A stretch of DNA of 64,000 nucleotides from Heliomicrobium modesticaldum Ice1 (lineage in GTDB: Bacteria; Bacillota; Desulfitobacteriia; Heliobacteriales; Heliobacteriaceae), in the NCBI RefSeq assembly GCF_000019165.1, contig NC_010337.2, forward strand, positions 1 to 64,000, given 5' to 3'. The position numbers were made by a program, and so were the translations under genes. How positions within the stretch are numbered: position 1 is the stretch's first letter; every line of letters begins with the position of its first letter. Below the pieces are notes generated by a model that was given only the letters and a program-made list of their open reading frames with translations, made no database searches and was not told where the DNA came from. Positions 32,731-48,436 of this stretch are shown piece by piece.

Positions 32731-32928
32731 ATGAAGGTGGAGAAAAGTTCTTACACGTGCACAGCTTGCGGTAAAAATTTCGGCATATCTATTTCGAATG
32801 CCGGTTATCCGGGCGGAAAAGACCGCGAAAGCATAAACTGCCCTTGGTGCGGTACGGAAAATGGCACAATTATAACCAGCGGGATTATTACCTCGTGTCG
32901 AGAGGAAAAAGGCGGTGATAGCCGGTGA
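32731..32928 (+). CDS. Zinc-ribbon protein, 65 aa
   Basis: YTCTACGKNFGIS and NCPWCGTENG provide two CxxC knuckles separated by 28 residues, a single zinc ribbon. GAAGGGGGATTATCTT precedes the ATG. The stop overlaps the GTG start of the fic gene by 4 nt, so the two proteins are translationally coupled. It may partner or regulate Fic, but this is inference. Confidence 0.75.
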   Translation: MKVEKSSYTCTACGKNFGISISNAGYPGGKDRESINCPWCGTENGTIITSGIITSCREEKGGDSR

Positions 32929-33680
32929 CCATATATGAAAAAATCGACCGCTGCCACAAGGCTATCAGCGAGGTTCGCCCCTTCGAGGGGCATATGCTGA
33001 AGCAGTTGAAAGACTATTACCGCATCGGGCTCACATGGTCGAGTAATGCCATCGAGGGGAATACCCTCACCATCAGCGAGACAAAGGTGGTGCTTGAGGA
33101 CGGTCTAACCATCGGGGGCAGGCCGCTCCGGGATTTCTATGAGACGGTGGGCCACGGCCAAGCCTATGATTTCATGTTTACCCTGATTGGGGAGCGGCGC
33201 ATAACTGTGGAGGACATTAAAACCATGCATCGCCTGTTCTACAAAAGCATTGACGAGGCAAACGCTGGCACATGGAGGAAGGAAAGCGTTATCGTCTCCG
33301 GTACCGAGTATGTCTTCCCCCGGCCACAGGAAATTGATGGACAAATGCGGAAGCTGGAGAAATGGGTAAAGGCCGAGCGGAAAAATTACCATCCCGTAAC
33401 CTTTGCCGCGCTGCTGCACCTGAAGTTTGTGTCAATCCACCCGTTCATTGATGGCAACGGCAGAACAAGCCGTCTTATCATGAATTTGGCGCTGATACAA
33501 GACGGTTATCAGTTGGCAATTATTCCTCCTGTGCTCCGGCCAGAATATAACGACACCATCCGGCAGTATCAGAACAAGGGTAAGTCTGAGCCGTTCTGTG
33601 AATTCATTGCCGAGCGGGTGTATGAAACGCAGAAGGAAATCATGCGGCTGCTGCACATTCCGTTTCCCGAGCTGTCATAA
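32925..33680 (+). CDS. fic: Fic family protein (predicted AMP transferase) with N-terminal inhibitory helix
   Basis: The 251-aa product has the catalytic motif HPFIDGNGRTSR (HPFxxGNGR; His is the general base, the GNGR loop holds ATP). It also has the flap TEYVFPRPQEID that docks the substrate. Near residue 45, SSNAIEGNTLT matches the autoinhibitory (S/T)xxxE(G/N) motif, so this is a class II Fic whose inhibition is built in. Fic enzymes usually transfer AMP to Tyr, Ser or Thr of a target protein. Translation is coupled to the zinc-ribbon gene, GTG start at 32925. Target unknown. Confidence 0.92.
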   Translation: MTIYEKIDRCHKAISEVRPFEGHMLKQLKDYYRIGLTWSSNAIEGNTLTISETKVVLEDGLTIGGRPLRDFYETVGHGQAYDFMFTLIGERRITVEDIKTMHRLFYKSIDEANAGTWRKESVIVSGTEYVFPRPQEIDGQMRKLEKWVKAERKNYHPVTFAALLHLKFVSIHPFIDGNGRTSRLIMNLALIQDGYQLAIIPPVLRPEYNDTIRQYQNKGKSEPFCEFIAERVYETQKEIMRLLHIPFPELS

Positions 33681-33684
33681 AACG

Positions 33685-33720
33685 AGAGCGGGTATCCCAA
33701 CACAGGAATCCCGCTCTTTC
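33685..33720 (+). terminator. Terminator of the fic operon
   Basis: AGAGCGGG-ATCCC/GGAAT-CCCGCTCT stem (33685-33717) followed by TTCTT. Confidence 0.8.
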
Positions 33721-33809
33721 TTCATTAAAGCCGTCCTGGGCCCGCTTGGCTCGTGGCGGCTTTTGTTATTATATTCTGCACGAAGGCGCCTGCAATCTGG
33801 CGCCGGCGT

Positions 33810-34079
33810 TTAATACTCACTGGGGAATAGAATCGTCGTCGCTGACCTGTCCCATTCGGTTATAATCCAGATTTTCCCCTTGCTGGTCAGGTACGCAGCC
33901 ATTACCCGGTCTCCGCTTTCAACCGCCTGGTCGTTTAGGGTCTTATCCTCTTGGCAGAGGTCGCCCCAATCGTGCCGCTGGTATCTGCCAAAGGCTGCAG
34001 CAATCTCCCGAGCAAATGCCAGGTCGCTCTCCATTTCTTCCGCAATGCCTCGGGTTGCCACAAGTCTGCCGTATTTCAT
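33810..34079 (-). CDS. Prophage/ICE-type hypothetical protein, 89 aa
   Basis: ATG at 34079 follows AAGGGGAGAGCACG. The C-terminal block DKTLNDQAVESGDRVMAAYLTSKGKIWIITEWDRSATTILFPSEY-like pattern (KTLNDQAV, GDRV, AAY, SKGKIWIITE, TTILFP) recurs in small proteins of Firmicute phages and conjugative elements. It stands alone on the minus strand between plus-strand genes. Function unknown. Confidence 0.7.
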   Translation of the reverse strand: MKYGRLVATRGIAEEMESDLAFAREIAAAFGRYQRHDWGDLCQEDKTLNDQAVESGDRVMAAYLTSKGKIWIITEWDRSATTILFPSEY

Positions 34080-34238
34080 CGTGCTCTCCCCTTTCCGTTA
34101 TGGTTTGAGTCCATGGTACCGCGCCGGGTCGCCGATGGTTAAGGCGTACTGGGTGGGTAATTTCCTGGCTTTTGGGCCGCCGCTCCGAGAGCGCTGGCGT
34201 CAATCTTGACGTTCATCGAGCAAGGAGGTGGCTTGCCC

Positions 34239-34574
34239 ATGATTACCGCCACCCGTTACACAGTGGAGTATGACGAAGCCCGGAGCGTTTATAGAATCCG
34301 AAATATGGAGGCGCCGGTTTGTCCGCAGTGTGGCCTGCTGCTCTCCGGGTATGATACAAAAAAGCGACATGTAATCGACAGCTCCGGGGCAGTCCGCTGG
34401 TTCCTGCTGCGTCGCCTCAGATGCCCTGGCTGCGGTAAGCTGCACATCGAACTTCCCGACTTCATGCAGCCAAAAAAGCATTATGAGGCCCAGTTGATTA
34501 TGGACGTATTGGCCGGCCACTCTGATTCCTGCCCGGCGGACGACTCGACAATCCGACGATGGAAGAAAAAATAA
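34239..34574 (+). CDS. DUF6431-like zinc-finger protein, 111 aa
   Basis: ATG at 34239 follows AAGGAGGTGGCTTGCCC, so the upstream start at 34206 is rejected. The protein has VCPQCGLLLSGYDTKKR and RLRCPGCGKLHIELPDFMQPKKHY, two CxxC knuckles with an intervening basic strand, plus a C-terminal ADDSTIRRWKKK. The pattern fits DUF6431, a family often found near mobile elements and reminiscent of transposase DNA-binding domains. The exact role is unknown. Confidence 0.7.
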   Translation: MITATRYTVEYDEARSVYRIRNMEAPVCPQCGLLLSGYDTKKRHVIDSSGAVRWFLLRRLRCPGCGKLHIELPDFMQPKKHYEAQLIMDVLAGHSDSCPADDSTIRRWKKK

Positions 34575-34659
34575 TACCCACCCGGTTTGCCTTTATCCCG
34601 CTGAAAAACACCGCTATTATTATATCTGCACAAAAGCAGAAAGGGGGGATACGGTCTAT

Positions 34660-35136
34660 ATGAAAAACAACATCATAACTATGGCCGCCGTGTCGCTTAT
34701 TACCGCTGTTATTGCGCTTAGTGGTGTCTTGATAGGCACAAATCTGGCGGGGCGAGATTCCATGCCGGACACCGGCGCAAGAAACTCTACAGCGGCTACG
34801 GTGGAAACGACACCTGTCGAAATTCCAAAAACGATAGCCATTCCAGGCTACGCCCAGCTGGTGATGAAGGCGGGAGATATCGTGCAGAATGTAGAATTAC
34901 ATAATCCAGCGGGGAATCCCTGTTATTTCGTAATTTCTATAATTTTGCCTGACGGTACCGAAGTTTACCGCTCTGGCCTGATTGAGCCTGGACAAAAAAC
35001 AGACGCCATTAGGCTATCGCAACCACTGAAGGCAGGTACCTACAAGGGGGCCGTACTGCGGTATTCCTGCTACTCTACCAAGGACAAGGCGCCGATGAAT
35101 GGCGCTGATACAAAATTCACATTGGAGGTGGTTTGA
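34660..35136 (+). CDS. Signal-anchored extracytoplasmic beta-sandwich protein
   Basis: The 158-aa product has an N-terminal membrane anchor (IITMAAVSLITAVIALSGVLIGTNLAG), a short Ser/Thr linker and a beta-rich domain: IAIPGYAQLVMKAGDIVQNV, NPCYFVISIILPDGTEVYRS, then KAGTYKGAVLRYSCY. The layout looks like an immunoglobulin-like surface domain. AAAGGGGGGAT precedes the ATG and a TATTATTATAT -10-like tract lies in 34615-34624. It overlaps the next secreted-protein gene by a TGATG junction. Neighbours are phage genes, so this pair is lysogenic cargo or host DNA captured in the element. Confidence 0.7.
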   Translation: MKNNIITMAAVSLITAVIALSGVLIGTNLAGRDSMPDTGARNSTAATVETTPVEIPKTIAIPGYAQLVMKAGDIVQNVELHNPAGNPCYFVISIILPDGTEVYRSGLIEPGQKTDAIRLSQPLKAGTYKGAVLRYSCYSTKDKAPMNGADTKFTLEVV

Positions 35137-35714
35137 TGAAAAGAAAATTTATGGCATTAATTTTAACTATAGCCATGTTGGCGCTACCCGCGACGGTCTA
35201 CGCTGAAGACGTGACTACAGGCAGTATGACGGTATCTTACGAATATACGGCCCCTAACGGCGGAGGAACGGGCGGCGGGGGAACGGGAGACACCACGACC
35301 TATACCATAAATATTCCAGCGACCGTAACCAATGAAAACCTGGAAGTTATACCAATAACGGTAACAAAAAATAATATTGCTGCCGGGAAGATACTTGTAG
35401 TTAGTGTTGATTGGGACAAGTCATACGATGCCAGCGGCTACTTTAACCTATATAAAAATAAAGGAGAATCAAACGAGGAATCCATCCGATGCCGCGTCAT
35501 GGCTTACACAGACAGCGCATTAAGTGACATGGTGTACGTAGATTCCATGCAGGAGCTTCGGGGTAGGCCGGTTGCCAAATTTAACGCCGGTAGTACCAGC
35601 CCGTCTTACGGCGGCTTTTTGAGGCTCAACCCTTTGACTTTAGGACTAAATGTAAGCTCCGGCACATACACAGGTACGCTATACTTCAATATCCAGGTAA
35701 CGGATGCCGCATAA
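35136..35714 (+). CDS. Secreted beta-rich surface protein with Gly-rich hinge
   Basis: Start at ATG 35136 behind GGAGGTGG. A clear signal peptide (MKRKFMALILTIAMLALPAT, predicted cleavage after VYA) is followed by DVTTGSMTVSYEYTAP, a Gly-Thr hinge (GGGTGGGGTGD) and a ~150-residue domain: YTINIPATVTNENLEVIPIT, AGKILVVSVDWDKSYDASGY, and a last strand GTYTGTLYFNIQV. The pattern resembles pilin-like or WxL-like cell-surface domains but no LPxTG or WxL motif is seen. It is translationally coupled to the previous gene. Function unknown. Confidence 0.72.
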   Translation: MKRKFMALILTIAMLALPATVYAEDVTTGSMTVSYEYTAPNGGGTGGGGTGDTTTYTINIPATVTNENLEVIPITVTKNNIAAGKILVVSVDWDKSYDASGYFNLYKNKGESNEESIRCRVMAYTDSALSDMVYVDSMQELRGRPVAKFNAGSTSPSYGGFLRLNPLTLGLNVSSGTYTGTLYFNIQVTDAA

Positions 35715-35761
35715 GGTGGTCTCCCCCCCTTTTTTTTCTGTTATTGTGAGGATTTAATGCA

Positions 35762-35802
35762 TAAAAAACACAGATGGGAATCCCCCCTACTGTGTTTTTT
35801 GC
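35762..35802. terminator. Bidirectional terminator after the secreted-protein pair
   Basis: AAAAAACACAG (35764-35774) pairs with CTGTGTTTTTT (35792-35802), with T/A runs on both strands. 35803-36079 has no supported gene. Confidence 0.85.
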
Positions 35803-36079
35803 TTCCTACCAGGTAATCTATAAAGCGGCCACAGATAGCCTCCACATTTGCTCCATTTTGGCGTGTTTTCTTTTGCCCTTGTAATTACCCTACCAGCAAC
35901 AATATCGGCTTGTACGCGCCGCACAGGGCGTCCAGGGAGGGGTGTTTTTCCTGCCCTGCTTTTGCCCTGTTTCTGCCCCAGCAAAAAGGAGCGGCTTTTT
36001 GCTTAAAGTCCTGGGTAAAAATAATAGAGCGGATGGGGTTCCGCCCTATGAGTTTGCCGTTCAAAACTTAGCTGAAGCT

Positions 36080-36583
36080 CTATCTGTACGGTTCTTTGAA
36101 AATGCGCCTGATGCGTGGCTTTGCCCTCTCGATGATAGGCTCCTCGAACGGGCGAGGGGCTATTCGTCCGTCTTTTGTACCATCATTAAGCCATGGCGCA
36201 TACTTCACATCGGTGGTAATTGCCGACCTTACGGTCAGACCGCTTCCCGTTTTTTCAGACTCGGTTCTTGGCCTCCAGCTTTGGCGCAGGTTGCCGCTGC
36301 GCACCGCCGGCGGCTCTCCTGGTGCAGAAGCTCGGTACAGCTGCCCGCCCCGCAAGTTATGACCGTAGTCATTGAGCAATGCTTTTGTCTGTTTGGTCAT
36401 TCTCTTGCCATATGTGCCAGGCTTTTTATAAACCCTGCCGCTTCGTTGTCCTCGCAGGACAGTGAGCGCTGCGTTGCGGAGCTCGTTGGATGCTCTGAAG
36501 GCCCTTGATTTTACTTCCCATGTTATTTTTTGTACCGCATCATCTACTGCGCTTTTTATAGCTTCTGTTGTGTCAATTTTCAA
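36080..36583 (-). CDS. HK97 gp10-like phage structural protein
   Basis: The 167-aa basic protein shows the gp10-like pattern: NELRNAALTVLRGQRSGRVYKKPG, then YRASAPGEPPAVRSGNLRQSW and ITTDVKYAPWLNDGTKDGRIAPRPFEEP. This is the conserved A-P-G-x-P-P-x-x-x-x-G-x-L core and the Y-A-x-W-(L/V)-N-x-G-(T) end. Family members are head-tail connector or tail-completion components. Its ATG overlaps the tape-measure stop (36580-36583). It lies after the tape measure, the reverse of the usual order. Confidence 0.78.
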   Translation of the reverse strand: MKIDTTEAIKSAVDDAVQKITWEVKSRAFRASNELRNAALTVLRGQRSGRVYKKPGTYGKRMTKQTKALLNDYGHNLRGGQLYRASAPGEPPAVRSGNLRQSWRPRTESEKTGSGLTVRSAITTDVKYAPWLNDGTKDGRIAPRPFEEPIIERAKPRIRRIFKEPYR

Positions 36584-39500
36584 GCCCCGGCCCCTCCCTT
36601 CACCGGCATATTTGCGAAAATACGGGCCAGTCGTTCCGCGAGCTCGTCGCCGATGTCGTCGGCCATCTCCCGGATGCGTCCCTTTATGATGGTCACGACG
36701 TTCTCCTCATCGAGGTTATCCCCCTCAATGTGAAATGCGGGATGTACCTCGACTTTTTCCACCCTTGCCTGAATATACTGGGTCACGTTGCCGGTTCCTA
36801 CGCTGACCGGCACGGCGCTCGCTGTGGGAATATCACCTGCAATCCCGCCGTTTCCGTACGGTCGCACACCCAGCAGTTCTCCCGTCCGCCACCAAAGGTC
36901 GAGACCTCTTGCGCGCTTGCTTGGGCTTAATGGAATGATGCCCTCGGCTCCGTCCTCGGCCACAATGCCCATATGCGGTTTCGTCATGATGCCGCCCCAT
37001 GCATGTTTCGCAACATTGGAGCCGCCGCTTGAACCAGCTTCATATCCGGCTGAAAAACTGGATTTTACCTTGTCCCAGATATTGCTTGCCCAATCCCTGA
37101 AGCTGCCGAACCACCCGATAACACTGTCCTTTAATGCCTTTGCATATTCCGGTATTTTTTCGGTCACAAAGGTGCTCACGCTGCTCCACAGGTCAGTGAA
37201 AAACTCAGGAACTTTTTGTGTAAAGAACTCGTTTGCTTTGTTGAAAGCCCCCGTCGCCCATGTAGGTAAGGTCTCCGTGAAAAATCCATACACGGAATTC
37301 CACAGATTAGTGAAAAACGTCGGGACTGAAACGGTGAAGAAGTTTACCGCCGTGTTGTATGCCCCGTTCGCCCAGGCGGGGATTGTCTCGGTGAAAAAGT
37401 TCCCTACAGCTGTCCATAAGTCGTTCCATACCTGCGGGAGCGTTACGGTGAAAAACTTCCCAATCGAACCGGTCGCATAGCCTATGGCATAAGGTATCTG
37501 CTCTGTCACGAAGTTTGGTATTGTTTCTGTGAAAAATCTACTGATGGATTCTCCCGCCTTTGTCCCAAACTCGGAAATTGCAGTCTTTACTTTTCCTCCC
37601 ATTGAAGCTATTGCGTCTTTCTGATCATACAGCCACTCGGTGAATGCTTCTCCGCCTATGGCACCTCCAATGCCGCCAACAATGCCACCGACAGCGGTTC
37701 CGATTGGCCCGCCTCCAAGGGTGCCAACCAATGCCCCGGCTCCAGCTCCAGCGCCTATGGCGCCTAACCAGCTTCCTACTTCCCCGGCAGTTTCTCTTCC
37801 TCTGTTTTCTGGCGCTGCAGAAGCAACAACCGCTCCGCTCGCTGCCAAACCAAGAAGCGTACCCAATACAGGTATTCCCTTGATGCCTTTTCCTGCAGCT
37901 TTGCTCCCTGCTTTTAAGACATCATCGCCGCTTTTACCGAACCATCCTGCAATTTTACTGAATATGCCCGTCTTGCCGGCCACATCCCCTGCTTTGTCCG
38001 CTACTTTAGCTGCGTTTGCGACGTCCTTTGCGACAACAAACCCTTCTCTCGCGTTTGCGTAGTCTATCGCTTTAAGATTTTTCAAGTTTACCATGTCGTC
38101 AAGGTGCGACGCCGCCTTTTTAACATCAACTCGGCCTTTTGCCACCGCTTTCTCGGCAGCCATAATCTTACCGGACAATCCTTTGGGTATATCGTCCCCG
38201 AATTTGGCCGCTTCTTTTTTCAGCTCCTTCAGCAATCTCGCACTCTTTTCAAGGTCTGCCTGTTTAGCAGTCTTTAATGCTTCTGCGGTCTTTACGGCTT
38301 TCTCTGCCTCTTTCGAAGCGTTTGCAGCCGCCCTAAATGATTCTGCCGCATCCTTAAGGTTTTTGGTTGTTTTCGCTATATCAGCAACATCATCAGCAGC
38401 TCCTGCAGCTGCACCGGCGACCTTGGCTGCATCTGCTGCAGCATCTGCGGCTTTCGAGCCTTTGCCGAATAACCATTTTCCGGTTTTCCACAGGCCCTTG
38501 CCACCGGCTATAGCGGCTTTTCCTCCTTTGCCGACTATACCAAGCAATGTTCCTGCGCCAAGCATCCAGGCCATGCCGCCCAGCGCCGCAGCGCCACTCC
38601 AATTGCCTTCCCTGGCTGCGTTTCCGGCTCCTTTCAAGGTTGCCCCCAGGGCTGTCATCCATGCCCGTCCCGCTATCTCGGCCATTTCAACAAAGACCTT
38701 CTCGACCTTTTTACCGCCCGCACCTTGCAACCATTTGCTCGCTTCGTCCAGCCCGTACTCAATACCGTAAATAAGTTTGTCTCCCAGGCCCATATTCTTT
38801 AGCTCGCCCTGGTTGAACTTATCCAGGAATTCCTTGACGTCCTTATAAATTTGCTCCAGCTTTTCGCCTACTACCTTACCTGCATATTCCAGCGAACCTG
38901 CAAAGCTATTAAACTTCTTGCCGGTCGGGTCAAGTTGAGCAGACAAATCTTGCATGATGCGCATCACCGGCCCGCTCATCCCCCGTCCAAAGGCCCACAG
39001 GAACATTCGGCCCGTCTCCTTCAATGCAGATTCCAGGGCCAGAAGGTCGTCCTGCATATCTTTGGCCGGGAATCTCTTCTCCATGGTTTTTAGAATGGCC
39101 TCCATAGCCTCGTTTGCCGGTATGGCGGCATCCCCGAGATTCTTTGCAGCCTTGCCCGTCAGGCCCAGTTCCTCTATAACCCATTGTAGCGGGAGGTTTA
39201 AGTTCTCTGTTACCTGCCGCAGCTCCTCCATCTGCAATGTACCGACAGCCGAAATCTGTTTAAATCCGTAAAAAGCCAATTCAATCTGCGACATGCTGGC
39301 TCCGGTGTAATATGCGGTTTGTTCAAAGTCTTTTAGCGCCCTTTTGACGAATTCGATATTTTTACCGGCTGCAAGTAATTGGCCGGCGGTCTGAACCACA
39401 AACGGCACTTCATAAAGCGGTGATTTGATGGCTTGGTTAACTAACTCCTGAAAGGCTTTGGTTCCCTCTTCCGCTGAACCGGTAAAGAAATCAATCGATT

Positions 39501-39891
39501 TTTTGGCTCTATCCATCTCACCGCTCAATTGGAGACCCTTAAATCCGACAGCAGTCAGGCTGCCCCCGAGTATGACGCCTTGAAGAGAGGTCGCAAAGTT
39601 CCATATGGACTTAAGCGGAGCTGTCGCCATATCAACCACTTTCATGGTGAAGCTGTAAGTCCTCCCTGCGATGCTGCGTGCCTTCGTGGAGACATGCCCT
39701 ATAATGCTAGATGCTCTGTCTAAGGCTTCAAGAATAACCTGATATCTGCTTCTATTCATTTTCTCCAGGCGTTCCTGCGTCTTTTGGTTCGCCCTGTCAA
39801 AGGCGCTTACCTTGCGCGTGGCCTGGGAGATGCCAGGGTCTGTGTTGTCCCTGACGTTTATGGGGATTTCAACTCTAAATGTCTCTCCCAT
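36580..39891 (-). CDS. Phage tail tape measure protein
   Basis: The 1103-aa product has the tape-measure N-terminal domain (residues ~100-280: GGSLTAVGFKGLQLSGEMDRA, ELVNQAIKSPLYEVPFVVQTAGQLLAAGK, IELAFYGFKQISAVGTLQMEELRQV). A long Ala/Lys helical stretch follows (~450-640), then Gly-rich hydrophobic segments (~680-790: GIKGIPVLGTLLGLAASGAV, GAGAGALVGTLGGGPIG). About five repeats around FFTETIPxWxxGAxNxxxxFFT follow (~800-930). It sets tail length in long-tailed phages. AGGAGGAGAACACT precedes the ATG. The gene is intact, but the tail-tube and chaperone genes that should precede it are absent. Confidence 0.92.
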   Translation of the reverse strand: MGETFRVEIPINVRDNTDPGISQATRKVSAFDRANQKTQERLEKMNRSRYQVILEALDRASSIIGHVSTKARSIAGRTYSFTMKVVDMATAPLKSIWNFATSLQGVILGGSLTAVGFKGLQLSGEMDRAKKSIDFFTGSAEEGTKAFQELVNQAIKSPLYEVPFVVQTAGQLLAAGKNIEFVKRALKDFEQTAYYTGASMSQIELAFYGFKQISAVGTLQMEELRQVTENLNLPLQWVIEELGLTGKAAKNLGDAAIPANEAMEAILKTMEKRFPAKDMQDDLLALESALKETGRMFLWAFGRGMSGPVMRIMQDLSAQLDPTGKKFNSFAGSLEYAGKVVGEKLEQIYKDVKEFLDKFNQGELKNMGLGDKLIYGIEYGLDEASKWLQGAGGKKVEKVFVEMAEIAGRAWMTALGATLKGAGNAAREGNWSGAAALGGMAWMLGAGTLLGIVGKGGKAAIAGGKGLWKTGKWLFGKGSKAADAAADAAKVAGAAAGAADDVADIAKTTKNLKDAAESFRAAANASKEAEKAVKTAEALKTAKQADLEKSARLLKELKKEAAKFGDDIPKGLSGKIMAAEKAVAKGRVDVKKAASHLDDMVNLKNLKAIDYANAREGFVVAKDVANAAKVADKAGDVAGKTGIFSKIAGWFGKSGDDVLKAGSKAAGKGIKGIPVLGTLLGLAASGAVVASAAPENRGRETAGEVGSWLGAIGAGAGAGALVGTLGGGPIGTAVGGIVGGIGGAIGGEAFTEWLYDQKDAIASMGGKVKTAISEFGTKAGESISRFFTETIPNFVTEQIPYAIGYATGSIGKFFTVTLPQVWNDLWTAVGNFFTETIPAWANGAYNTAVNFFTVSVPTFFTNLWNSVYGFFTETLPTWATGAFNKANEFFTQKVPEFFTDLWSSVSTFVTEKIPEYAKALKDSVIGWFGSFRDWASNIWDKVKSSFSAGYEAGSSGGSNVAKHAWGGIMTKPHMGIVAEDGAEGIIPLSPSKRARGLDLWWRTGELLGVRPYGNGGIAGDIPTASAVPVSVGTGNVTQYIQARVEKVEVHPAFHIEGDNLDEENVVTIIKGRIREMADDIGDELAERLARIFANMPVKGGAGA

Positions 39892-39976
39892 AGTGTTCTC
39901 CTCCTTTCTGAATCATTTTTGATACTTAGTTTTAAGAACCAGGAAGGGCGGTGCTCTGACGTTGTAAAAATTCCCA

Positions 39977-41374
39977 TTAACCATACCTCCCCAGTCTCTC
40001 TTTCGCTTTTTTTACCGCTTCCTCGTCGTCCTCTAACTCTTCCGGGATGTCCGAATATGTCCCCTTCCCCGGTTTTACGTTAGAGCTTTGTCTCTTTGGT
40101 TGTCTTGGGTTTGGGTCTGTGCCCTCGTCCAGTCTTTCCGGCAATCCCGCCGCCTCTCTTACATAGTCCTCCAGATGGTCATCCGGCACCAAGACACCCA
40201 CGCCGGTCATGTCCTTGATATAAGCCGCCAGCGCCTGAATGTCCGCGCTCTCAATATCACCGTGCTCCAAGGTGGGATAATCGGTTATGCCGCTGAAATG
40301 CTCACCGTTAAGGTCTATCAATGTCGGTATTGCCTGGTTGTTGAAAACCTCGCAGATAATATCGAGGTAAGCGCCTACAGCCATTGAGAATAATTCGGTC
40401 TTGTCGCTGCTCAAGGCAAAGCTGCCCACTTGCTGGTGCCCAAGCAGTACGAAGTCTGCAAGGACAGTCATGGCTATTCGGGTATCGTATCGCTCGATGA
40501 TGGCGTTGGTATCGAACTGGCGCCGGCCACCGGTGCTCAATAGCTGTAGCTCCCAGCCTGCCGGGAGGCTCAAGCCTTCCATGCTGTCGCGGCGGATGTT
40601 CTGGACGATTTTCTCTGTCAGCAGGCGAATGGCGGTCATGTCCGGGTCGTCCTCGTCCCAGATGTTCATTCCTTCCGGTGCCTTCAAAACAGGAAAGCCA
40701 GCCAGGTCGCGCTCGATGCCTATTCCCTCTATCTCTTGAATGCGGCGCTTGAAATACCAGCTCCGGTATGCGTTGCGGAGGATGCTTCTCCCTTCAGGGT
40801 TGCCCTTGCGGCTCTTCGTCCTGAAAAGCAGCAGCTTTTCAATTGGTATTTGGATTATCTCAAAAGTGGGCGGCGGCATCTGTGCCATTCCCAGAAGGTT
40901 GTCATTATCATCATATAACCACTCCCAGAGAGTATCCTGCGCCCTGATGGGTAACTTTTGCCACCCTATCAATCCATCAGTGTACTTACTCTTTAGTCGC
41001 GGGTCGCTGTTCCTGCCTAAGCGCCGCTTGTAGACCAATTCGTGAGCACTCCAACCAAAAGTTAAAAACGACAGGATTTCAGAGATGGTATCCGTCCATG
41101 TGTCGCTCATGTCGTCCATGCAGCTATAAATAAAGTCCGCTGCTTCTTGGTCTTTGGCTGTGGGGCCTCCCGGCTGCACGCTCCAGCTTGCCTGTCTGAT
41201 AAGCATTTCTATGGCGTAAAGGATGGCGCCGATAACATCGTCGTTCTCGCTCATCTCCTTGTACACCTCGATGCCTTTTCTGCCCTGTAAATCCTTGAGA
41301 AACTCTTCGTAGAAAAATCCCCCGTAGCGGCGCTGTCCTATACGACCTAATTCTTTTAAGCTATTGCTTTGCAA
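39977..41374 (-). CDS. Phage portal protein, DUF935/Mu gp29-like
   Basis: The 465-aa product shows DUF935 features: GFFYEEFLKDLQGRKGIEVYKEM, AILYAIEMLIRQASWSVQPG, FGWSAHELVYKRR, GNPEGRSILRNAYRSWYFKRR, and GHQQVGSFALSSDKTELFSMAVGAYLD toward the C-terminus. The acidic tail (EELEDDEEAVKKAKERLGRYG) is typical. It would form the dodecameric ring through which DNA enters the capsid. A ribosome site GGAGGGGAG precedes the ATG. The very next gene downstream (85 nt) is the tape measure, so the head and connector genes are missing. Confidence 0.9.
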   Translation of the reverse strand: MQSNSLKELGRIGQRRYGGFFYEEFLKDLQGRKGIEVYKEMSENDDVIGAILYAIEMLIRQASWSVQPGGPTAKDQEAADFIYSCMDDMSDTWTDTISEILSFLTFGWSAHELVYKRRLGRNSDPRLKSKYTDGLIGWQKLPIRAQDTLWEWLYDDNDNLLGMAQMPPPTFEIIQIPIEKLLLFRTKSRKGNPEGRSILRNAYRSWYFKRRIQEIEGIGIERDLAGFPVLKAPEGMNIWDEDDPDMTAIRLLTEKIVQNIRRDSMEGLSLPAGWELQLLSTGGRRQFDTNAIIERYDTRIAMTVLADFVLLGHQQVGSFALSSDKTELFSMAVGAYLDIICEVFNNQAIPTLIDLNGEHFSGITDYPTLEHGDIESADIQALAAYIKDMTGVGVLVPDDHLEDYVREAAGLPERLDEGTDPNPRQPKRQSSNVKPGKGTYSDIPEELEDDEEAVKKAKERLGRYG

Positions 41375-41407
41375 ATTCTCCCCTCCTTTCCCGCCAATTT
41401 TTCCAGT

Positions 41408-41701
41408 TTATCTGCTTTTCAGCAGAAAATCGAGAACGTCACACATTTGCTTTAGCGCCTGGGTCATGTACTCTTCATTCCTGGGGTTCCCCGATTGAAT
41501 GCTGTCGACCAGCTGCCTGGCTAATTCCTGCTTGTCCAGGATTTTTTCAAAAGACGATTTCTCGTTTGCTTCCCGCGCCGCTGCGGCCCGTTCATCTGCT
41601 TGGCGTTGCAGCTCCTGGCGGCGCTGGTATAACTCCCTGTCTTCAGCCTTTTGCCGCTCGATAACATCAGTCAGTGACTTCCCATTATAAAGGCTGGACA
41701 T
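41408..41701 (-). CDS. Small coiled-coil phage protein, 97 aa
   Basis: ATG at 41701 follows GGGAGGTGAGAAGCGA. The middle is a charged helix (RQKAEDRELYQRRQELQRQADERAAAAREANEK). It ends YMTQALKQMCDVLDFLLKSR. Position just upstream of the portal gene suggests a scaffold-like or packaging accessory role, which is inference only. Confidence 0.6.
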   Translation of the reverse strand: MSSLYNGKSLTDVIERQKAEDRELYQRRQELQRQADERAAAAREANEKSSFEKILDKQELARQLVDSIQSGNPRNEEYMTQALKQMCDVLDFLLKSR

Positions 41702-41728
41702 TCGCTTCTCACCTCCCTTCCAAATCCT

Positions 41729-42682
41729 TCAGTTAGCCGTTTGAGTATTACTCAAAGCCGCTTTGTTTACATCATCAGGGTTCAGGCAAATTCCACCGGT
41801 GCCGTACATAATGTCAGTCAAATCCTCTACACCTCTGGTTATGTATTTGAAAATTGTCCTCCTGGCAATCCTGAATCTGTCCGATATTTGAATTGTTTTC
41901 AGAGGGTAATCCGCAAAATAGAAATAAAATAATATGTTGTATGCCTTGTCCTGCTTTTCGTTAATGGCAGTTGTCCTGTATCTTTCCATTGCCTGAATTA
42001 ATTCTTTCCGCTCCCCTGGTGTTGATTTGCCTTTCTTATATCTCCTTAAGGCTTCCCTTACTTGCTGCTGCCTGGCCTTAATCTCTAAGTCAGAGCATTC
42101 TTCTCGCTCGACAATATCCTGAGCAAATTCTTCTGTAAGCTGTCTCTTTATTAACGCCTGCAGGCGCTCTTGCAAATCCGCACGACCTTCACATGTAATA
42201 TTCATGAGTTGGCATTCTTCAAAAAAAGCACGACATTCGTTTCTGACCTCCTGTTCAAGTTCTACAGTCAGCCGTTTTGTGATTTGCTCTTTCATCTTTT
42301 CTTCCATGATTCTTTCTTCTTTCATCCGCCAATCAAATCCATCAATGCCATACAACAAAAAGGTTAAATCCCTTACTCCTGTACCTATATCTTTAAATAC
42401 CGTCCTTTTGTTTATATTAAATAACCTCATAATTTGTTCGGGTGTCAAAGTCCGGCTTGAAAAATAAGAGTATAACAACACGTTGTAGGCTCTGGTCTGA
42501 TTTTCCTTGAAGGCCAACCTCCTATAGCTCCGCATTGCTTCCACGAGGATTTCCCTTTCCTCGGGCCTTGATTTCCCGCATTTATATCGGTTAAGCGCTC
42601 GTTTAATGGTTTGATAACGCTTCTTTATAGGAATCTTTGAGCATTCTTCCGCCTCTATTAGATCTTGGATGCTAATTTCCAT
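41729..42682 (-). CDS. Protein with two tandem copies of a sigma-region-4-like HTH domain
   Basis: Residues ~10-112 and ~187-297 of this 317-aa protein are clear duplicates: EECSKIPIKKRYQTIKRALNRYKCGKS against EECSDLEIKARQQQVREALRRYKKGKS, RAYNVLLYSYFSSRTLTPEQI against KAYNILFYFYFADYPLKTIQI, NKRTVFKDIGTGVRDLTFLLYG against ARRTIFKYITRGVEDLTDIMYG. Each half resembles the sigma-like HTH of phage late-gene regulators (ArpU type). A charged helical linker (~118-185) joins them. ATG at 42682 follows GGAGGTGCTTT. A DNA-binding late regulator that dimerises within one chain is the inference. Confidence 0.78.
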   Translation of the reverse strand: MEISIQDLIEAEECSKIPIKKRYQTIKRALNRYKCGKSRPEEREILVEAMRSYRRLAFKENQTRAYNVLLYSYFSSRTLTPEQIMRLFNINKRTVFKDIGTGVRDLTFLLYGIDGFDWRMKEERIMEEKMKEQITKRLTVELEQEVRNECRAFFEECQLMNITCEGRADLQERLQALIKRQLTEEFAQDIVEREECSDLEIKARQQQVREALRRYKKGKSTPGERKELIQAMERYRTTAINEKQDKAYNILFYFYFADYPLKTIQISDRFRIARRTIFKYITRGVEDLTDIMYGTGGICLNPDDVNKAALSNTQTAN

Positions 42683-42696
42683 AAAGCACCTCCAGT

Positions 42697-43413
42697 TTAT
42701 ATTGGTTCAAGCCCGCTATCCCCCAATAGACCTTTTATTTTTTCTGGATCAAGGTAGCTCGGACGTTTATTGTTCCAGTTATAAGCTTTTCTCAATTCTC
42801 GTATGCCTTTTGAACGTCGCAGCGAATTAAAAGCAGTATCTCTCACTGACAGAACAGTTCCGAGTTCACACCCAAACTCCTGAGCGAGACCTTCAATGGT
42901 CTTGTTGTTATAAAAAATGCCGTATATCACACACTGTTCACGTGGAGAGAGCCTTTCTATTTCTCTTCTAACAATGAGCCTCATGTCGTTCAGTTCGCAA
43001 AAGCTGTATGTATCGGCATCAGGGTCGCTAATAATGTCCTCTAAAGTAAGGCCTTCTTCATCGTCAGATATGGGTGTTTCAAGTGAAATGGTCTCGACCT
43101 CCCGGTTTAACACCTTGCCGCCGGTCTGGAACGATATCCCCAGCTCCCTCCAGCATTCCCTCGCTACACAAAAATCAAGATACGATGTAAATTTCAGCTC
43201 CCTCTCCGGCGAGTATTGCTTGAGCGCACTCAGATATGCAAAATAGCCACACTGTGTTAAGTCCTCCGGCCTGACACCCTTCCTGTTGGTCTCGCAATAC
43301 TTGAAATACCGGCTCGTGATTTTATATATTAGCGGGGCGACCGCAAAATATAGTTTATGCAGGCTCTCCGTGTCGCCCTGGGCGGCCATGATTGCCAGCT
43401 CTTCATTAGTCAC
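42697..43413 (-). CDS. Phage-encoded sigma-70-like factor
   Basis: VTNEELAIMAAQGDTESLHKLYFAVAPLIYKITSRYFKYC is region 2-like, with GVRPEDLTQCGYFAYLSALKQYSPERELKFTSYLDF covering the 2.1-2.4 helices. The C-terminal SPREQCVIYGIFYNNKTIEGLAQEFGCELGTVLSVRDTAFNSLRRSK pattern is region 4 with its HTH. GTG at 43413 is preferred over ATG 43464: GGAGAGGGG lies ~10 nt upstream and the protein then starts like other sigma factors. It would redirect RNA polymerase to phage promoters, presumably together with the duplicated-HTH protein encoded 14 nt downstream. Confidence 0.8.
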   Translation of the reverse strand: MTNEELAIMAAQGDTESLHKLYFAVAPLIYKITSRYFKYCETNRKGVRPEDLTQCGYFAYLSALKQYSPERELKFTSYLDFCVARECWRELGISFQTGGKVLNREVETISLETPISDDEEGLTLEDIISDPDADTYSFCELNDMRLIVRREIERLSPREQCVIYGIFYNNKTIEGLAQEFGCELGTVLSVRDTAFNSLRRSKGIRELRKAYNWNNKRPSYLDPEKIKGLLGDSGLEPI

Positions 43414-43529
43414 TTGAATGCTCACCCCTCTCCGTGGTAGAATATGGATAGATATTTTAACCATATGGCTGTACCACGGGGGCGGGAGCTTTTCAACGGC
43501 TCTCGTTTTATTTATGCTCGCTGAAGAGC

Positions 43530-44546
43530 TTAACCACTGTCATCGCTTTGCTTGAAACCAGCGAGAGCGCCTCCGTCTTGTTTCTTTGGCTCATCCGCAT
43601 CGTCATCCTTGCACCATTCTGCGTCTTCCGCCCTATGAAAGCCCGAGAGGGCAAAACCTCCGGCCTTATTTGGCCCAGTATGTTGCTTATTGATGACAGT
43701 GTCATTGTCATCTTCCTCCCATGCGAGCTTGAATCTTGAATGTTGGCTATTGCTTCCATACGGTTGGGTCACCTCCTCGTATTCATCGTCCCAGCGCCCC
43801 TGGTTGAGCCAGGTCGCAGGGTTTGGTATAAACCGGCCATTTTCCCTCTGCCATTGCTCTGTCCGCTTCGCGGTTGCCACAGCCTTAATTATCTTGGCAT
43901 GTAGCTCGGCAGTTGGTTTGACGCGCTGCCATGACTTAAAGGCGGCTTGTTTTCCGGTCTTCTTCGGATACGCCGCCCAGAATTCTTCAAATCGTTTTTC
44001 TTGAATATTTATGACCGGTGCCGCACTTCCCCCGGCGGGGGTTAGGGGGGTGGTTGCTATACTCTTCTTTTCTGTGCTTTTATTTTCTATGCTTTTCTTT
44101 GCTATGCTTTGTGTCATTTCTGCCCCTGTTTCTGCGGCAGAAATGGGAGCAGAAATTTTACTCTCGTATCTTTCAGCCTCCCGCTCCCGTTTTTCAAAGA
44201 CTTTCCTGGCTCTCTTCTGTATTCCGTGGCTGGTTAGTTTGCCTGTTTTGGCATAGAAATCGGCGTCAAATGCGCCGTGTCGGAGGAACGATTGAAGGAT
44301 ATTATCGTATTGTTGTTCGTCGATGTGGAGTTTCCGCTGAATTACTTCCCTCATTTCTGCCCCTGTTTCTGTTGCAGAAATATCAACTGTTAAATCGTCG
44401 GAGCGGTAGCAGTATTCCAAGTGGACGAAATAAAAGGCGTATGCGGCGGCGCCGTAGCGCATGATTGCTGGTTCTATTTTGGGGTCTGTGGTCACGTCCA
44501 CGTCATGCGGGAAGTAATCCAGACCTGTCTTTCGTGGCCGTGCCAT
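43530..44546 (-). CDS. Phage replication protein, DUF4373-type N-terminal domain
   Basis: MARPRKTGLDYFPHDVDVTT, then YGAAAYAFYFVHLEYCYRSD is the Lin1244/DUF4373 N-terminal winged-helix domain found in phage replication initiators. After a Ser/Lys-rich linker, FEEFWAAYPKKTGKQAAFKSWQRVKPTAELHAKII is the common phage replisome tail motif. The C-terminal ~90 residues are acidic and low complexity, with two GGFALSGFxxA / GGALAGFKQ repeats that resemble helicase- or SSB-docking tails. 338 aa, intact. Transcribed leftward from the early promoter region. Confidence 0.82.
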   Translation of the reverse strand: MARPRKTGLDYFPHDVDVTTDPKIEPAIMRYGAAAYAFYFVHLEYCYRSDDLTVDISATETGAEMREVIQRKLHIDEQQYDNILQSFLRHGAFDADFYAKTGKLTSHGIQKRARKVFEKREREAERYESKISAPISAAETGAEMTQSIAKKSIENKSTEKKSIATTPLTPAGGSAAPVINIQEKRFEEFWAAYPKKTGKQAAFKSWQRVKPTAELHAKIIKAVATAKRTEQWQRENGRFIPNPATWLNQGRWDDEYEEVTQPYGSNSQHSRFKLAWEEDDNDTVINKQHTGPNKAGGFALSGFHRAEDAEWCKDDDADEPKKQDGGALAGFKQSDDSG

Positions 44547-44608
44547 GGTCGCCGCCTCCTCTCACTTTTCCACCTGCTACTCTACACCTTCCTTCCAAGC
44601 GGAGCGGA

Positions 44609-44836
44609 TCATATTCCGTACGCCTCGCGCATGTTGCCATCGCTACCGCCTCCCCGCTTCATCGCCACAAGCTCCCTTATGGCCTGCCGGACTTTTGCCT
44701 TTTCTTCAGGGGTGAGCTCGTCCCGCAGTTTCCGGCAGAATGTGGATTCCGCATACCCCAGGCGCTTTGCAATCTGCCAATGGGCCACATTAGCCTGCTT
44801 GGCCTCTTTTCGGATATCAATGTTGGCGTTGCTCAT
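44609..44836 (-). CDS. Small phage HTH protein (Cro-like position), 75 aa
   Basis: ATG at 44836 follows AAGGGAGGGTATAAA. The core KEAKQANVAHWQIAKRLGYAESTFCRKLRDELTPEEKAKVRQAI is an HTH of the type found in small phage regulators. It is the first gene of the leftward early transcript opposite the cI-like gene, where Cro normally sits. Its role is inferred from position. Confidence 0.75.
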   Translation of the reverse strand: MSNANIDIRKEAKQANVAHWQIAKRLGYAESTFCRKLRDELTPEEKAKVRQAIRELVAMKRGGGSDGNMREAYGI

Positions 44837-44874
44837 TTTATACCCTCCCTTGCATATAATTGTTGTTGTTGCTA

Positions 44875-44938
44875 TTGACCTCTGAATAGTTATGGTGTAC
44901 TATGGCTTTAGAATAATTCTTGTTGCTGTTGTTGTCAA
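44875..44938. promoter_or_regulatory. Divergent early promoters of the prophage switch
   Basis: Rightward: TTGACC (44875-44880), 17-nt spacer, TACTAT (44898-44903). Leftward: TTGACA (44933-44938 on the minus strand), 17-nt spacer, TATTCT (44910-44915). The promoters face and overlap each other. TTGTTG-rich direct repeats flank them (44861-44876 and 44920-44940) and may be operator elements. Confidence 0.78.
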
Positions 44939-45038
44939 TTGAGTATATAGCAATTCAACAATGTTATTCATTTTAAGAATTTGCGGCTCTGGTGCGCCGC
45001 TTATTTGCTGACGTTGTTAAACAAAAAGGAGGCATAAA

Positions 45039-45656
45039 ATGGGAGGAAGCAAAATCAACGAGACCGAGGTTCGTGTGCGGGAGTGTTTTTCTGAACGCCT
45101 TCGGGGACTACGCAAAGGGCGCAAGCTTTCCCAGAATGAATTGGGCGCCGCTCTGGGCTTGTCTCGCGGCAGTATCAGCTATTATGAAAAGCAGAGCCGA
45201 ACGGCTCCGATAGATGTCCTGTATGTCGTTGCGGATTATTTCAATGTGTCCGCTGATTTCCTGCTGGGGCTGAAGGAAGAACCTGATCCGGATATTGCTC
45301 AACTGAAGCCCGGCCCTCACAGGTCTTCTCTTTATCCTCCGCCGCTCGCTGCCAAAGAAGCCGCCGCCCTGGTATCCCAGCAATCCGAATTGTGGAGCGC
45401 TTTTGCTCGTTCTTCCCTATCGCTACCGGCGGCGTCCGGTCTGCGTGATAGCTTGTTTACTGCCGTAATGGGCACCATGGACGCTTACATGGTCGCGGCA
45501 CAGTTCCTCAAATCGGGTAAGCCCATAACAGAGTTAGTCTTGGCTCTACGGTCTGCCGGGGTATCTGCCGAGCTTTCCATGTCTCTCCTCGCCCAGGTCT
45601 CCGAGCTTCAGGGGAAAGTGAGCGGTGCCGGTCAGGATGGCGGGGAAAAGGAATAA
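45039..45656 (+). CDS. cI-type XRE repressor
   Basis: Residues ~10-75 form an XRE HTH: SERLRGLRKGRKLSQNELGAALGLSRGSISYYEKQSRTAPIDVL-like (key blocks LSQNELGAALGLSRGSISYYE and VADYFNVSADFLLGL). The remaining ~130 residues are an uncharacterised helical C-terminal domain, not a LexA-type peptidase (no Ser-Lys dyad motif seen). AAAGGAGGCATAAA precedes the ATG. Position opposite the early promoter fits the lysogeny repressor. Confidence 0.85.
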   Translation: MGGSKINETEVRVRECFSERLRGLRKGRKLSQNELGAALGLSRGSISYYEKQSRTAPIDVLYVVADYFNVSADFLLGLKEEPDPDIAQLKPGPHRSSLYPPPLAAKEAAALVSQQSELWSAFARSSLSLPAASGLRDSLFTAVMGTMDAYMVAAQFLKSGKPITELVLALRSAGVSAELSMSLLAQVSELQGKVSGAGQDGGEKE

Positions 45657-45660
45657 AAAT

Positions 45661-45692
45661 AAGCCCTGGCCGTCGTCCGGCTGGGGCTTTTG
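45661..45692 (+). terminator. Terminator after the repressor
   Basis: AAGCCC-GGCCG-TCGT-CCGGC-GGGCTT hairpin (45661-45689) followed by TTTG. The integrase ribosome site begins 4 nt later. Confidence 0.7.
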
Positions 45693-45709
45693 TGAAAGGA
45701 GGCGTTGCT

Positions 45710-46816
45710 TTGCCTGTTTATAAGGACGAAAAAAGAAAGACCTGGTATTGCGCCTTCCGCTACAAAGATTGGACTGGAACGACGCGGCAGCATAAAAAGC
45801 GGGGCTTTGCTAAAAAGTCCGACGCTGTCCAGTACGAACGCGATTTTATTAAAAAACAGAGCGGCGGTTGCGACATGGCCTTTGGTTCCATGGTCGAGCT
45901 TTATATGGAGGACTGCAAGACACGGCTCCGCCCTACGACCTATGAGGGCAAGAAGTACCTCATTGATTCAAAAATTCTTCCGGTATTTAAAGATATGCCT
46001 GTGAACGCCATTACTCCTGCGACGGTGCGAAAGTGGCAAAATGGCCTCTTGGACGATGAAAGCGATTATTCGCCTACATATCTCAAAACCATAAATAATC
46101 AGCTGTCGGCCATTTTTAATTATGCCAGGCGGTATTATGGCCTTCAAACCAATCCGGCGGCTGTCTGCGGCTCAATCGGCAAAAAGAACGCAGAGTCCAT
46201 GCAATTCTGGACTACTGATGAATTCCGGCTTTTCGCTGCCGCGATTTCAGATAAGCCTGCGTCATATGCCATTTTTAATACGCTATTCTGGACTGGCATG
46301 CGCTCCGGAGAGCTCCTGGCTCTTACCCTGAATGATATTGATTTTGAATCTAAAAAAATCAGCATCACGAAAAGTTACGCCAGGGTTGGTAATGAGGATG
46401 TCATTTCTCCCCCAAAGACGCCCAAGAGCCGCCGGGTAATCACGGCATCTGAATTCCTATTGGAAATCCTGAAGGATTATGCCGGTCGCCTGGTGGATTA
46501 CGAGCCTTCGGACAGGCTCTTTGATTATACAAAGCATTTCCTTGCCAGTGAAATGGCTCGCGGCTGTAAGCTTTCCGGCGTTAAAAAAATACGTATTCAT
46601 GACATTCGCCACTCCCACGCATCGCTGCTGATTGAACTCGGTTTTTCTCCGCTTCTAATATCGGAACGCCTTGGGCATGAAAGCGTAGAAACCACCTTAC
46701 AAACCTATGCCCATTTGTACCCTAACAAGCATGGTGAAGTAGCCGACAAATTGGATGCCCTCAATTCTCCAGAAAATGGCTCCAAATCAGATAAAAATCC
46801 CGAAAAACCGGAATAA
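45710..46816 (+). CDS. int: Prophage tyrosine integrase
   Basis: TTG at 45710, 7 nt after AAAGGAGG, gives a 368-aa protein starting PVYKDEKRKTWYCAFRYKDW, the AP2-like arm-binding domain. A core-binding SAM-like domain follows (FGSMVELYMEDCKTRLRPTTY). The catalytic domain has Arg in WTGMRSGELLALT, HxxR in IHDIRHSHASLL, GHESVETT and the nucleophile Tyr in LQTYAHLYP. All catalytic residues are present, so it should be active. The gene ends one base before the 23-bp repeat proposed as the attachment core. Confidence 0.95.
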   Translation: MPVYKDEKRKTWYCAFRYKDWTGTTRQHKKRGFAKKSDAVQYERDFIKKQSGGCDMAFGSMVELYMEDCKTRLRPTTYEGKKYLIDSKILPVFKDMPVNAITPATVRKWQNGLLDDESDYSPTYLKTINNQLSAIFNYARRYYGLQTNPAAVCGSIGKKNAESMQFWTTDEFRLFAAAISDKPASYAIFNTLFWTGMRSGELLALTLNDIDFESKKISITKSYARVGNEDVISPPKTPKSRRVITASEFLLEILKDYAGRLVDYEPSDRLFDYTKHFLASEMARGCKLSGVKKIRIHDIRHSHASLLIELGFSPLLISERLGHESVETTLQTYAHLYPNKHGEVADKLDALNSPENGSKSDKNPEKPE

Positions 46817-46839
46817 TGTTGCCATTTTGCTGCCACGGC
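46817..46839. other. Candidate prophage attachment site (right copy)
   Basis: 23 bp identical to 12450-12472, beginning one base after the integrase stop and ending 5 nt before the guaA-side terminator stem. Attachment cores commonly lie directly after the integrase gene. Confidence 0.55.
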
Positions 46840-46845
46840 CAAAAA

Positions 46846-46892
46846 GCAAAGCCTGTAAACCCTTTGTTTATCTGGGTTACAGGCTTTTTCTT
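46846..46892. terminator. Bidirectional terminator between int and guaA
   Basis: AAGCCTGTAAACCC pairs with GGGTTACAGGCTT (46849-46885), with TTTTTCTTTC on the plus strand and TTTGCTTTTT on the minus strand. Confidence 0.88.
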
Positions 46893-46894
46893 TC

Positions 46895-48436
46895 TTATTC
46901 CCATTCAATCGTCCCCGGCGGCTTCGACGTGATGTCGTAGACGACGCGGTTGACGCCTTTGACCTCGTTGACGATCCGGTTGGAGATCTTCTCCAGCAAC
47001 TCGTAGGGCAGCCGTGCCCAGTCGGCCGTCATGGCGTCGTCAGAGGTGACGGCCCGCAGGATGGCCGGGTACTCGTAGGTGCGGCCGTCGCCCATGACGC
47101 CGACGCTGCGGACGGTTGTCGGCAGCACGACAAAGGACTGCCAGATCTGCCGGTAAAGACCGGCTTTTTTGATCTCTTGGAAGACAATGTCATCAGCGTG
47201 ACGCAGGATGTCCAGGCTCTCCTTGGTGATCTCGCCGAGGACGCGGATGGCCAGACCCGGTCCGGGGAAGGGCTGGCGCCAGACGATATCTTCAGGCAGG
47301 CCCAGTCTCTGGCCCACTTCCCGCACCTCGTCCTTAAAGAGGGTGCGCAGGGGTTCGATCAGTTCGAATTTCATGTCTTCGGGCAGGCCGCCCACGTTGT
47401 GGTGGGTCTTGATCGTCTCGGCTGTCGAGGTACCGCTCTCGACGACGTCGGGGTAAAGGGTGCCTTGCACCAGGAAGTCCACCTGGCCCAATTTGGCCGC
47501 TTCCTCTTCGAAGACGCGGATGAATTCGTTGCCGATGCTTTTGCGCTTCGTCTCCGGGTCGGAGACACCGGCAACCTTGGCCATGAAGCGTTCTGACGCT
47601 TCGACGGCGATCAGGTTCATGCCCAGTTCGTCGCGGAAGGTCTTGATGATCCGCTCCGATTCGTTGAGGCGCATGAAGCCGTGATCGACGTAGACACAGG
47701 TCAGCTGCTCGCCGACAGCGCGGTGGACGAGGAGGGCCGCCACGGAGGAGTCGACGCCGCCCGAGAGGGCGCAGAGGACTTTGCCGCTGCCGACGCGGGC
47801 GCGGATGGCCGCGACCTGTTCTTCGATGAAGTTTTCCATGGTCCACTCACCGGTGCAGCCACAGACGCCGAAGAGGAAGTTGCGCATCATGTCCATGCCT
47901 TGGGGCGTGTGGCGCACCTCGGGGTGGAACTGGACACCGTAGAAGCGGCGCACCGGATCGGCCATGGCCGCAAAGGGGGCATGGTCTGTTTTGCCGGAGC
48001 CGACGAAGCCGTGGGGCAGGACTTCTACTTTGTCGCCATGGCTCATCCAGCACTGCACATCGCCTTCCATGCCGGCGAAGGGGCCTTCAGAAGCGGTGAT
48101 GGTGAGGGACGCCTTGCCGTATTCGCGCGATTCGGCCCTGCCGACCTTGCCTCCCAGTTGGTTGACCATGAGTTGCATGCCGTAGCAGATGCCCAGGATA
48201 GGGATGCCCAGGTCGTAGATGGCCGGGTCGACGGCAGGCGCTTTTTCTTCATAGACGCTGGCCGGACCGCCGGTGAAGATGATGCCCTTGGGATTCATCT
48301 CCCGGATGGCGTCGACGCTGATCGTGTAGGGGTGCATCTCGCAGTAGACGTGCAGTTCTCGGACGCGGCGCGCGATCAGTTGGTTATATTGACCGCCGAA
48401 GTCGAGGACCAAGATGGTTTCATGGGGCTTAGCCAA
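46895..48436 (-). CDS. guaA: GMP synthase (glutamine-hydrolysing)
   Basis: The 513-aa product converts XMP to GMP with ATP and glutamine. The class I amidotransferase domain (residues ~8-200) has the nucleophile Cys in [11 protein letters not shown] and His-Glu in [10 protein letters not shown]. The ATP-pyrophosphatase domain has the P-loop [16 protein letters not shown]. The dimerisation domain ends [10 protein letters not shown]. The start is TTG (48436) behind GAGAGGAG. It lies 102 nt after hpt in the same direction, consistent with a purine operon. The prophage integrated beyond its terminator without damaging it. Confidence 0.98.

Follow-up and report, generated by a model that had tools for sequence, protein, structure and literature searches.

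The question raised by this locus is why a phage-derived element should encode, immediately after a sigma factor, a single protein (P0001) in which the same helix-turn-helix (HTH) domain appears twice, where the two copies came from, and what a two-headed protein of this kind might do. The window analysed here is the whole 64,000-nucleotide stretch of Heliomicrobium modesticaldum Ice1 DNA, and the gene for P0001 belongs to a phage-derived element that has integrated there at the 3' end of guaA. The coordinates of the relevant features are collected in Table 1.

Table 1. Features of the P0001 gene and of the surrounding guaA element, in window coordinates
Feature	Position	Strand	Remarks
Two-headed HTH regulator P0001	41729..42682	-	317 aa ORF, ATG start
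Half A (aa 6-115)	42338..42667	-	HTH helices ~aa 81-111; matches single-headed type s1 (63% to L041)
Acidic helical linker (aa 116-187)	42122..42337	-	Low-confidence in model
Half B (aa 188-297)	41792..42121	-	HTH helices ~aa 263-293; groups with single-headed type s2
Sigma-70 family factor	42697..43464	-	255 aa, regions 2 and 4; directly upstream of P0001, same direction
97-aa protein	41408..41701	-	Directly downstream of P0001; weak matches only: DUF4355 scaffold-like, small-terminase-like
Mu-type portal protein	39977..41374	-	Portal_Mu E 6.6e-41
Tape measure protein	36580..39891	-	1103 aa; TMP_3 E 4.5e-12
HK97 gp10-like tail-completion protein	36080..36583	-	phrog_5 E 7.2e-12
Replication initiation protein	43530..44546	-	phrog_9474 E 8.6e-34
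Cro/CI-type repressor	45039..45656	+	Divergent from operon; profile matches
Tyrosine integrase of element	45692..46816	+	Phage_integrase E 3.9e-21
guaA 3' end, insertion site	46894..46910	-	att core GATTGAATGGGAATAAG

An earlier note on this DNA, made from the sequence alone, had claimed that two halves of ~105 residues align along their full length, and this was borne out with the length corrected to ~110 residues. Half A and half B (aa 6-115 and aa 188-297) pair over 110 residues without a gap and with 55 identities (50%), at a BLOSUM62 score of 273 compared with 32.2 ± 5.5 (maximum 62) for 2000 shuffles. With a z of ~43, the alignment stands far above the chance level. The motifs that the note had named (EECS, RYK-GKS, the YN-L helix and RT-FK-I) are present in both halves, as the pairs EECS/EECS, RYKCGKS/RYKKGKS, YNVLLY/YNILFY and RTVFKDIGTGVRDLT/RTIFKYITRGVEDLT, respectively, and the recognition helices of the two halves differ (A NKRTVFKDIGTG, B ARRTIFKYITRG). 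As the codon-aligned DNA of the halves is only 56% identical, the repeat is old and not an assembly stutter. Both domains are basic, with a pI of 9.8 for half A and 9.4 for half B (9.0 for P0001 overall), and the linker between them contains two copies (aa 126-141 and aa 170-186) of the C-terminal tail found in single-headed relatives, with scores reached by 2 and 0 of 5000 shuffles, respectively. The second tail copy lies directly before half B, a hint of a lost middle unit.

The phage sigma factor that the note had placed beside this gene was confirmed immediately upstream, where the encoded protein matches Sigma70_r2 (E 1.1e-5) and Sigma70_r4 (E 5.2e-6), both above the Pfam cut-off, as well as phrog_351 (E 8.6e-24); on these profile matches it is a genuine sigma-70-family factor. 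Reading leftward, the gene order is replication initiator, sigma, P0001, 97-aa protein, portal, tape measure and gp10-like tail completion, and the position of P0001 between the replication and sigma genes on one side and the structural genes on the other fits a late regulator. Neighbouring genes of this operon are separated by ~30-85 bp, which offers a separate late promoter little space. A promoter scan gave 9 sites compared with 4.9 ± 1.9 expected, and no direct repeats (14 bp, at most 2 mismatches) were found in the stretches scanned around and downstream of the regulator gene. A TATAAT at 41684-41689 lies across the beginning of the 97-aa gene and was given no weight.

A search for single-domain and duplicated homologues returned both. 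The two-headed architecture recurs in four other elements, L002 (z 46), L005 (z 39), L037 (z 32) and the distant L067 (z 20), and an assembly artefact was rejected as its origin because the form is present in these four other records. In the whole-protein search, the two-headed proteins of L002, a metagenome provirus, and L005 were 97% and 81% identical to that of the window, respectively, while profile searches found L037, from another genome of the window's phylum, and the more distant L067. The record behind L005 (JAGUVT010000105.1) is a metagenome-assembled genome titled Deltaproteobacteria, a label that looks wrong, as the match recurs as G522:C71, in the window's phylum. At 10 of the 15 collected loci, the place of P0001 is taken by a one-headed protein of 146-179 aa, counts that reflect the collections searched and one small element family. 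Of the five two-headed proteins, four are closely grouped. The one-headed genes lie directly after the sigma gene wherever the contig covers it, and they fall into type s1 (L041-L044), type s2 (L045-L047, L059 and L060) and type s3 (L066).

Both heads of the fused protein appear to be maintained. Comparison with L002, L005 and L037 gave dN/dS values of 0.11-0.38 in both halves of P0001, which on these sequence comparisons are under purifying selection, and the RT..K.I recognition core is kept in every half of the four closer two-headed proteins. Together, these observations argue against a dead second head. They also bear on a neutral account, in which the two-headed form is a by-product of recombination between alleles and only one head matters: the locus is a recombination hotspot at which one- and two-headed forms alternate, as such an account would have it, but conservation in both halves and the persistence of two-headed forms across relatives whose halves are only 55-65% identical make it very unlikely.

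The two heads are homologous, as the earlier note had proposed, but the simple internal self-duplication that it envisaged did not hold up, as half A is nearer to the single-headed protein of L041 (type s1, 63%) than to half B (50%). Half B is 51% identical to the single-headed protein of L046 (type s2) compared with 50% to half A. In a tree of 15 rows, the A halves cluster with type s1 and the B halves with type s2 (98/99); in a larger tree, consisting of the same set plus L066 and L067, the support for joining B to s2 was 88/97. The link between A and s1 is thus strong, and that between B and s2 is less strong, resting on the tree rather than on raw identity. In approximately unbiased (AU) tests that included L066 and L067, a grouping of all halves together apart from the singles was rejected (p 0.016), as was a grouping of the A halves alone together (p 0.020). 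L067 sits on a long branch, with AU p values of 0.35 for its two halves together and 0.21 for all B halves together, and its duplication may be an independent event. A simple recent self-duplication was rejected for the window, given the DNA identity of 56% between the halves and a tree that pairs each half with a different single lineage.

Half A retains the C-terminal tail of the single-headed proteins ahead of the junction. Since it does so, and since the halves group with s1 and s2, the two-headed gene unites two stand-alone regulator lineages, and the retained tail suggests that the fusion probably arose from two tandem or recombined alleles brought into one frame. As for the order of events, either the singles were fused, or the fusion came first and the singles later lost a half.

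The note had described the domains as two sigma-region-4-like HTHs in one chain, and the predicted structure agrees with this description. An AlphaFold model of P0001 from a 12-row alignment (a single-sequence run was useless, with a pLDDT of 45) contains two similar domains, aa 19-111 and aa 198-293, each half with five helices and mostly with a pLDDT of 78-93; the linker has a pLDDT of ~37-57, and with a pTM of 0.37 the head-to-head geometry is not fixed by the model. For both halves, VIA-align and Foldseek neighbours included sigma region 4 (SigW, SigR, SigL and SigA; Z 6-8) and UPF0122 proteins, with SigW matching aa 40-112 (5wuq, Z 7.8) and aa 223-295 (5wur, Z 7.5). The top VIA match was the antiterminator Q21, in which 6p1b aligned with 95 residues spanning half A (Z 8.5) and 6p1a, with DNA, gave Z 8.4; the superposition on half A has an rmsd of 4.1-4.6 A and 13-14% identity. 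Foldseek probabilities against several sigma region 4 chains were 0.95-1.0, but the E-values were above 0.1 (best 0.2) and not significant. A VIA Z of 7-8 can reflect a common arrangement among small helical domains. With such Z values common and the E-values non-significant, the fold assignment is good without being proof of relationship, and each half of P0001 is predicted to resemble sigma-70 region 4. Stand-alone domains of this sigma-4-like helical kind are also found in UPF0122-type proteins (1xsv, 1s7o), as in the P0001 heads, but those are single-headed host proteins.

Among sequence profiles, phrog_1558 matches P0001 twice (E 1.5e-17) and also matches all 12 aligned relatives, and the match in P0001 covers only profile positions 105-175, not the full-length single-domain architecture of ~178 aa. 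Further profile matches of P0001, to HTH and sigma-like families, were weak. There was no match to Pfam Sigma70_r4 or to the Q21 antiterminator family (PF06530) at E up to 10, and none to the ArpU, RinA and Ltr models of Pfam and NCBIfam; a weak match to Sigma70_r4_2 (E 0.04) was seen only in the relative L066. Searching solved structures by the P0001 sequence yielded no relevant match, a plasmid search yielded none, and the phage collection searched with full P0001 yielded a match only in Brevibacillus phage Emery. Its gp101, which sits at the end of the phage record, is an example of phrog_1558, a 178-position family of Firmicute phages without an assigned function. P0001 resembles this family in its homologous HTH region and its location before the late genes, but the phage members known so far have one head and a longer N-terminal part, whereas P0001 carries two shortened copies.

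Comparison of closely related one-headed elements showed that the regulator gene is exchanged together with the sigma gene. Between L042 (s1, 3855-4795) and L045 (s2), the DNA is 93-100% identical up to about codon 10-20 of sigma, 43-80% identical over what remains of the sigma gene and ~87 codons at the start of the HTH gene, and 100% identical thereafter; a second pair, L041 and L046, follows the same pattern with flanks of lower identity. The recognition helix is placed at and beyond the boundary of this block and is nearly the same in both types (s1 RRTVYKDIDRG, s2 RRTLFKDIDRG), so the exchanged unit consists of sigma and the N-terminal regulator helices. Exchange as one block suggests that sigma and these helices work together through a co-adapted contact; simple linkage is the alternative explanation. 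The promoter-recognition part of sigma is also shuffled, since region 2 falls to 41-63% DNA identity in the lowest windows between the window (42697-43464) and L002 (3356-4099), while the regulator gene (95-100%) and the replication gene are nearly identical. In the comparisons of L042 with L045 and of L041 with L046, a second exchanged block takes in the repressor along with the beginning of the replication gene. A tape-measure promoter that tracks the regulator type was considered and rejected, as L044 (s1) has s2-like upstream DNA.

The exchange raises a broader and quite improbable scenario, in which the guaA element family would diversify sigma and its partner regulator as an exchangeable cassette, some elements fusing two alleles into a dual-specificity regulator that reads two kinds of late promoter, for example its own and that of a helper or competitor element. 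The idea of the cassette as a swap of DNA specificity is weakened by the near-identity of the s1 and s2 recognition helices, at about whose start the swap ends.

As to function, we favor, at roughly even probability and by analogy with known regulators, the reading of P0001 as two Ltr/ArpU-like late activators in one chain that act with the sigma factor of the element. The one-headed proteins would pair up at two neighbouring DNA half-sites close to a late promoter, as Ltr/ArpU activators do, and the two-headed form would fuse two such regulators so that one molecule reads both half-sites, with the acidic linker setting the distance between the heads. Because the heads have different recognition helices, the two half-sites are probably different as well. 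Once bound, P0001 would recruit or stabilise RNA polymerase carrying the co-encoded sigma. Counting against this reading are the small gaps of the operon, the DNA upstream of the tape measure gene, which does not track the regulator type, the lack of direct repeats in the stretches scanned and of matches to the ArpU, RinA and Ltr models, the non-significant Foldseek E-values and a top VIA match that is an antiterminator.

Antitermination is the main rival to this reading because of the structural match to Q21. The HTHs of a Q21-like protein would occupy a promoter-adjacent element of the Q-binding type, take the place of sigma region 4 on the beta flap and alter elongating RNA polymerase for read-through into the structural genes. 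P0001 has a gene position of the same kind as Q21 (6p1a/6p1b) and would share with it a sigma-region-4-like fold and late-gene control, and the continuous operon with its small gaps would suit read-through; Q21 works on RNA polymerase as two molecules per enzyme (PMC7171158), both of which a two-headed chain would supply. On the other side, the Z of 8.5 for the Q21 match is near background for small helical domains and the rmsd exceeds 4 A, Q21 itself is one-headed with no detectable sequence similarity to P0001 and no match to its Pfam family, and the presence of a sigma factor in the element fits promoter activation more simply. We regard antitermination as unlikely. We give a similarly low probability to some other DNA-binding role, as a repressor of promoters in the element or as a recognition factor in replication or packaging, in which the second head merely raises affinity. 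An HTH fold by itself suggests only DNA binding, small terminases use HTHs, and the element has no visible large terminase and a next gene with weak small-terminase-like matches; but a Cro/CI-type repressor is already encoded, L067 has a small terminase (phrog_6299, E 5e-22) separate from its two-headed protein, and its linkage to sigma and their exchange as a unit speak for a role in transcription.

Set against known systems, the favored reading as a late activator has several partial parallels. P0001 resembles the Ltr regulators, which are basic (RinA, LtrC; PMC13123087), and ArpU in being built on a small basic domain encoded at the end of the early genes and upstream of the structural genes. 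Ltr sites usually lie near the 3' end of the regulator, as several imperfect direct repeats at the promoter, whereas P0001 has two heads, a co-encoded sigma, no Ltr-type repeats found and no family-model match. Because neither direct repeats nor an ArpU/RinA model match were found, we do not file P0001 in the Ltr/ArpU/RinA superfamily. A late regulator that is both fused and split is already known, as GafA of Rhodobacter capsulatus corresponds to GafY plus GafZ of Caulobacter (PMC11150451). This late/GTA regulator is likewise fused in some genomes and separate in others, and its parts act with sigma and RNA polymerase; GafY and GafZ have distinct roles, whereas the heads of P0001 are paralogues, and the one-headed forms described here are, unlike the GafY/GafZ pair, alternative alleles of one locus. 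GafA is the nearest precedent, the parallel being architectural. A literature search on phage late activators with two HTHs in a single chain yielded no relevant paper in the library searched.

The element belongs to a family represented by window 28300-46910 and by L002, L005, L037, L041-L047 and L067, which are ~15-24 kb long and lie at the guaA 3' end where it is covered. Their gene set comprises integrase, repressor, replication initiator, sigma, HTH regulator, tape measure and gp10-like protein, with the Mu-type portal optional; guaA adjoins the integrase in L005, L037 and L041, with the same gene order, and the window element has an integrase as well. The portal is also present in L002 and L067, and in L005, L037 and L041-L047 no portal gene was seen in the interval that separates the ~100-aa gene from the tape measure gene, although the absence of a gene from IMG/VR records is weak evidence because the records are fragments. 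L067 carries extra genes for a small terminase, head morphogenesis, a tail chaperone and a baseplate hub. No large terminase or major capsid was seen in the family; the ORFs of the window element that were searched include no terminase or capsid, and in G569 no ORF of large-terminase size is left unexplained. The guaA elements may be phage satellites that bring tail genes; a decayed prophage is a possible alternative for the window element.

Several further observations were made on these elements. At ~4536 of L046 (G564; contig position 12374), the right end and the integrase end of the element meet at a copy of the guaA 3' end without guaA, as in an excised circle or a tandem copy. In the same genome, the 3' portion of the tape measure gene occurs twice together with its downstream gene (1-5102 and 17601-22702; L081 and L082), the copies being identical over ~3.3 kb and 17.6 kb apart and the first of them preceded by a gene for an HNH-like protein in place of the sigma and HTH genes; either recombination with the tape measure gene of another phage or misassembly would account for this. 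A 17-bp near-copy of the att core (2 mismatches) is present at window 12336-12352 beside one of two near-identical transposase genes (IS copies at 12861-14204 and 25836-27179), and IS activity may have moved the right end of the element. Window 34660-35714 (+), convergent to the phage operon, encodes two conserved signal-peptide-like proteins of 158 and 193 aa with no Pfam match; the pair travels with the sister elements and lies next to genes for a DUF6431 zinc-ribbon protein (34206-34574) and a Fic protein (32925-33680).

A phage late regulator is usually a small protein that acts in several copies. A single-chain form that occurs naturally, together with one-headed relatives at the same locus, provides a ready-made system for determining the number and spacing of heads that are needed. 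The P0001 system also lets one ask how a sigma factor and its helper regulator co-evolve, and the joint exchange of sigma and regulator offers a testable handle on the surfaces that must match.
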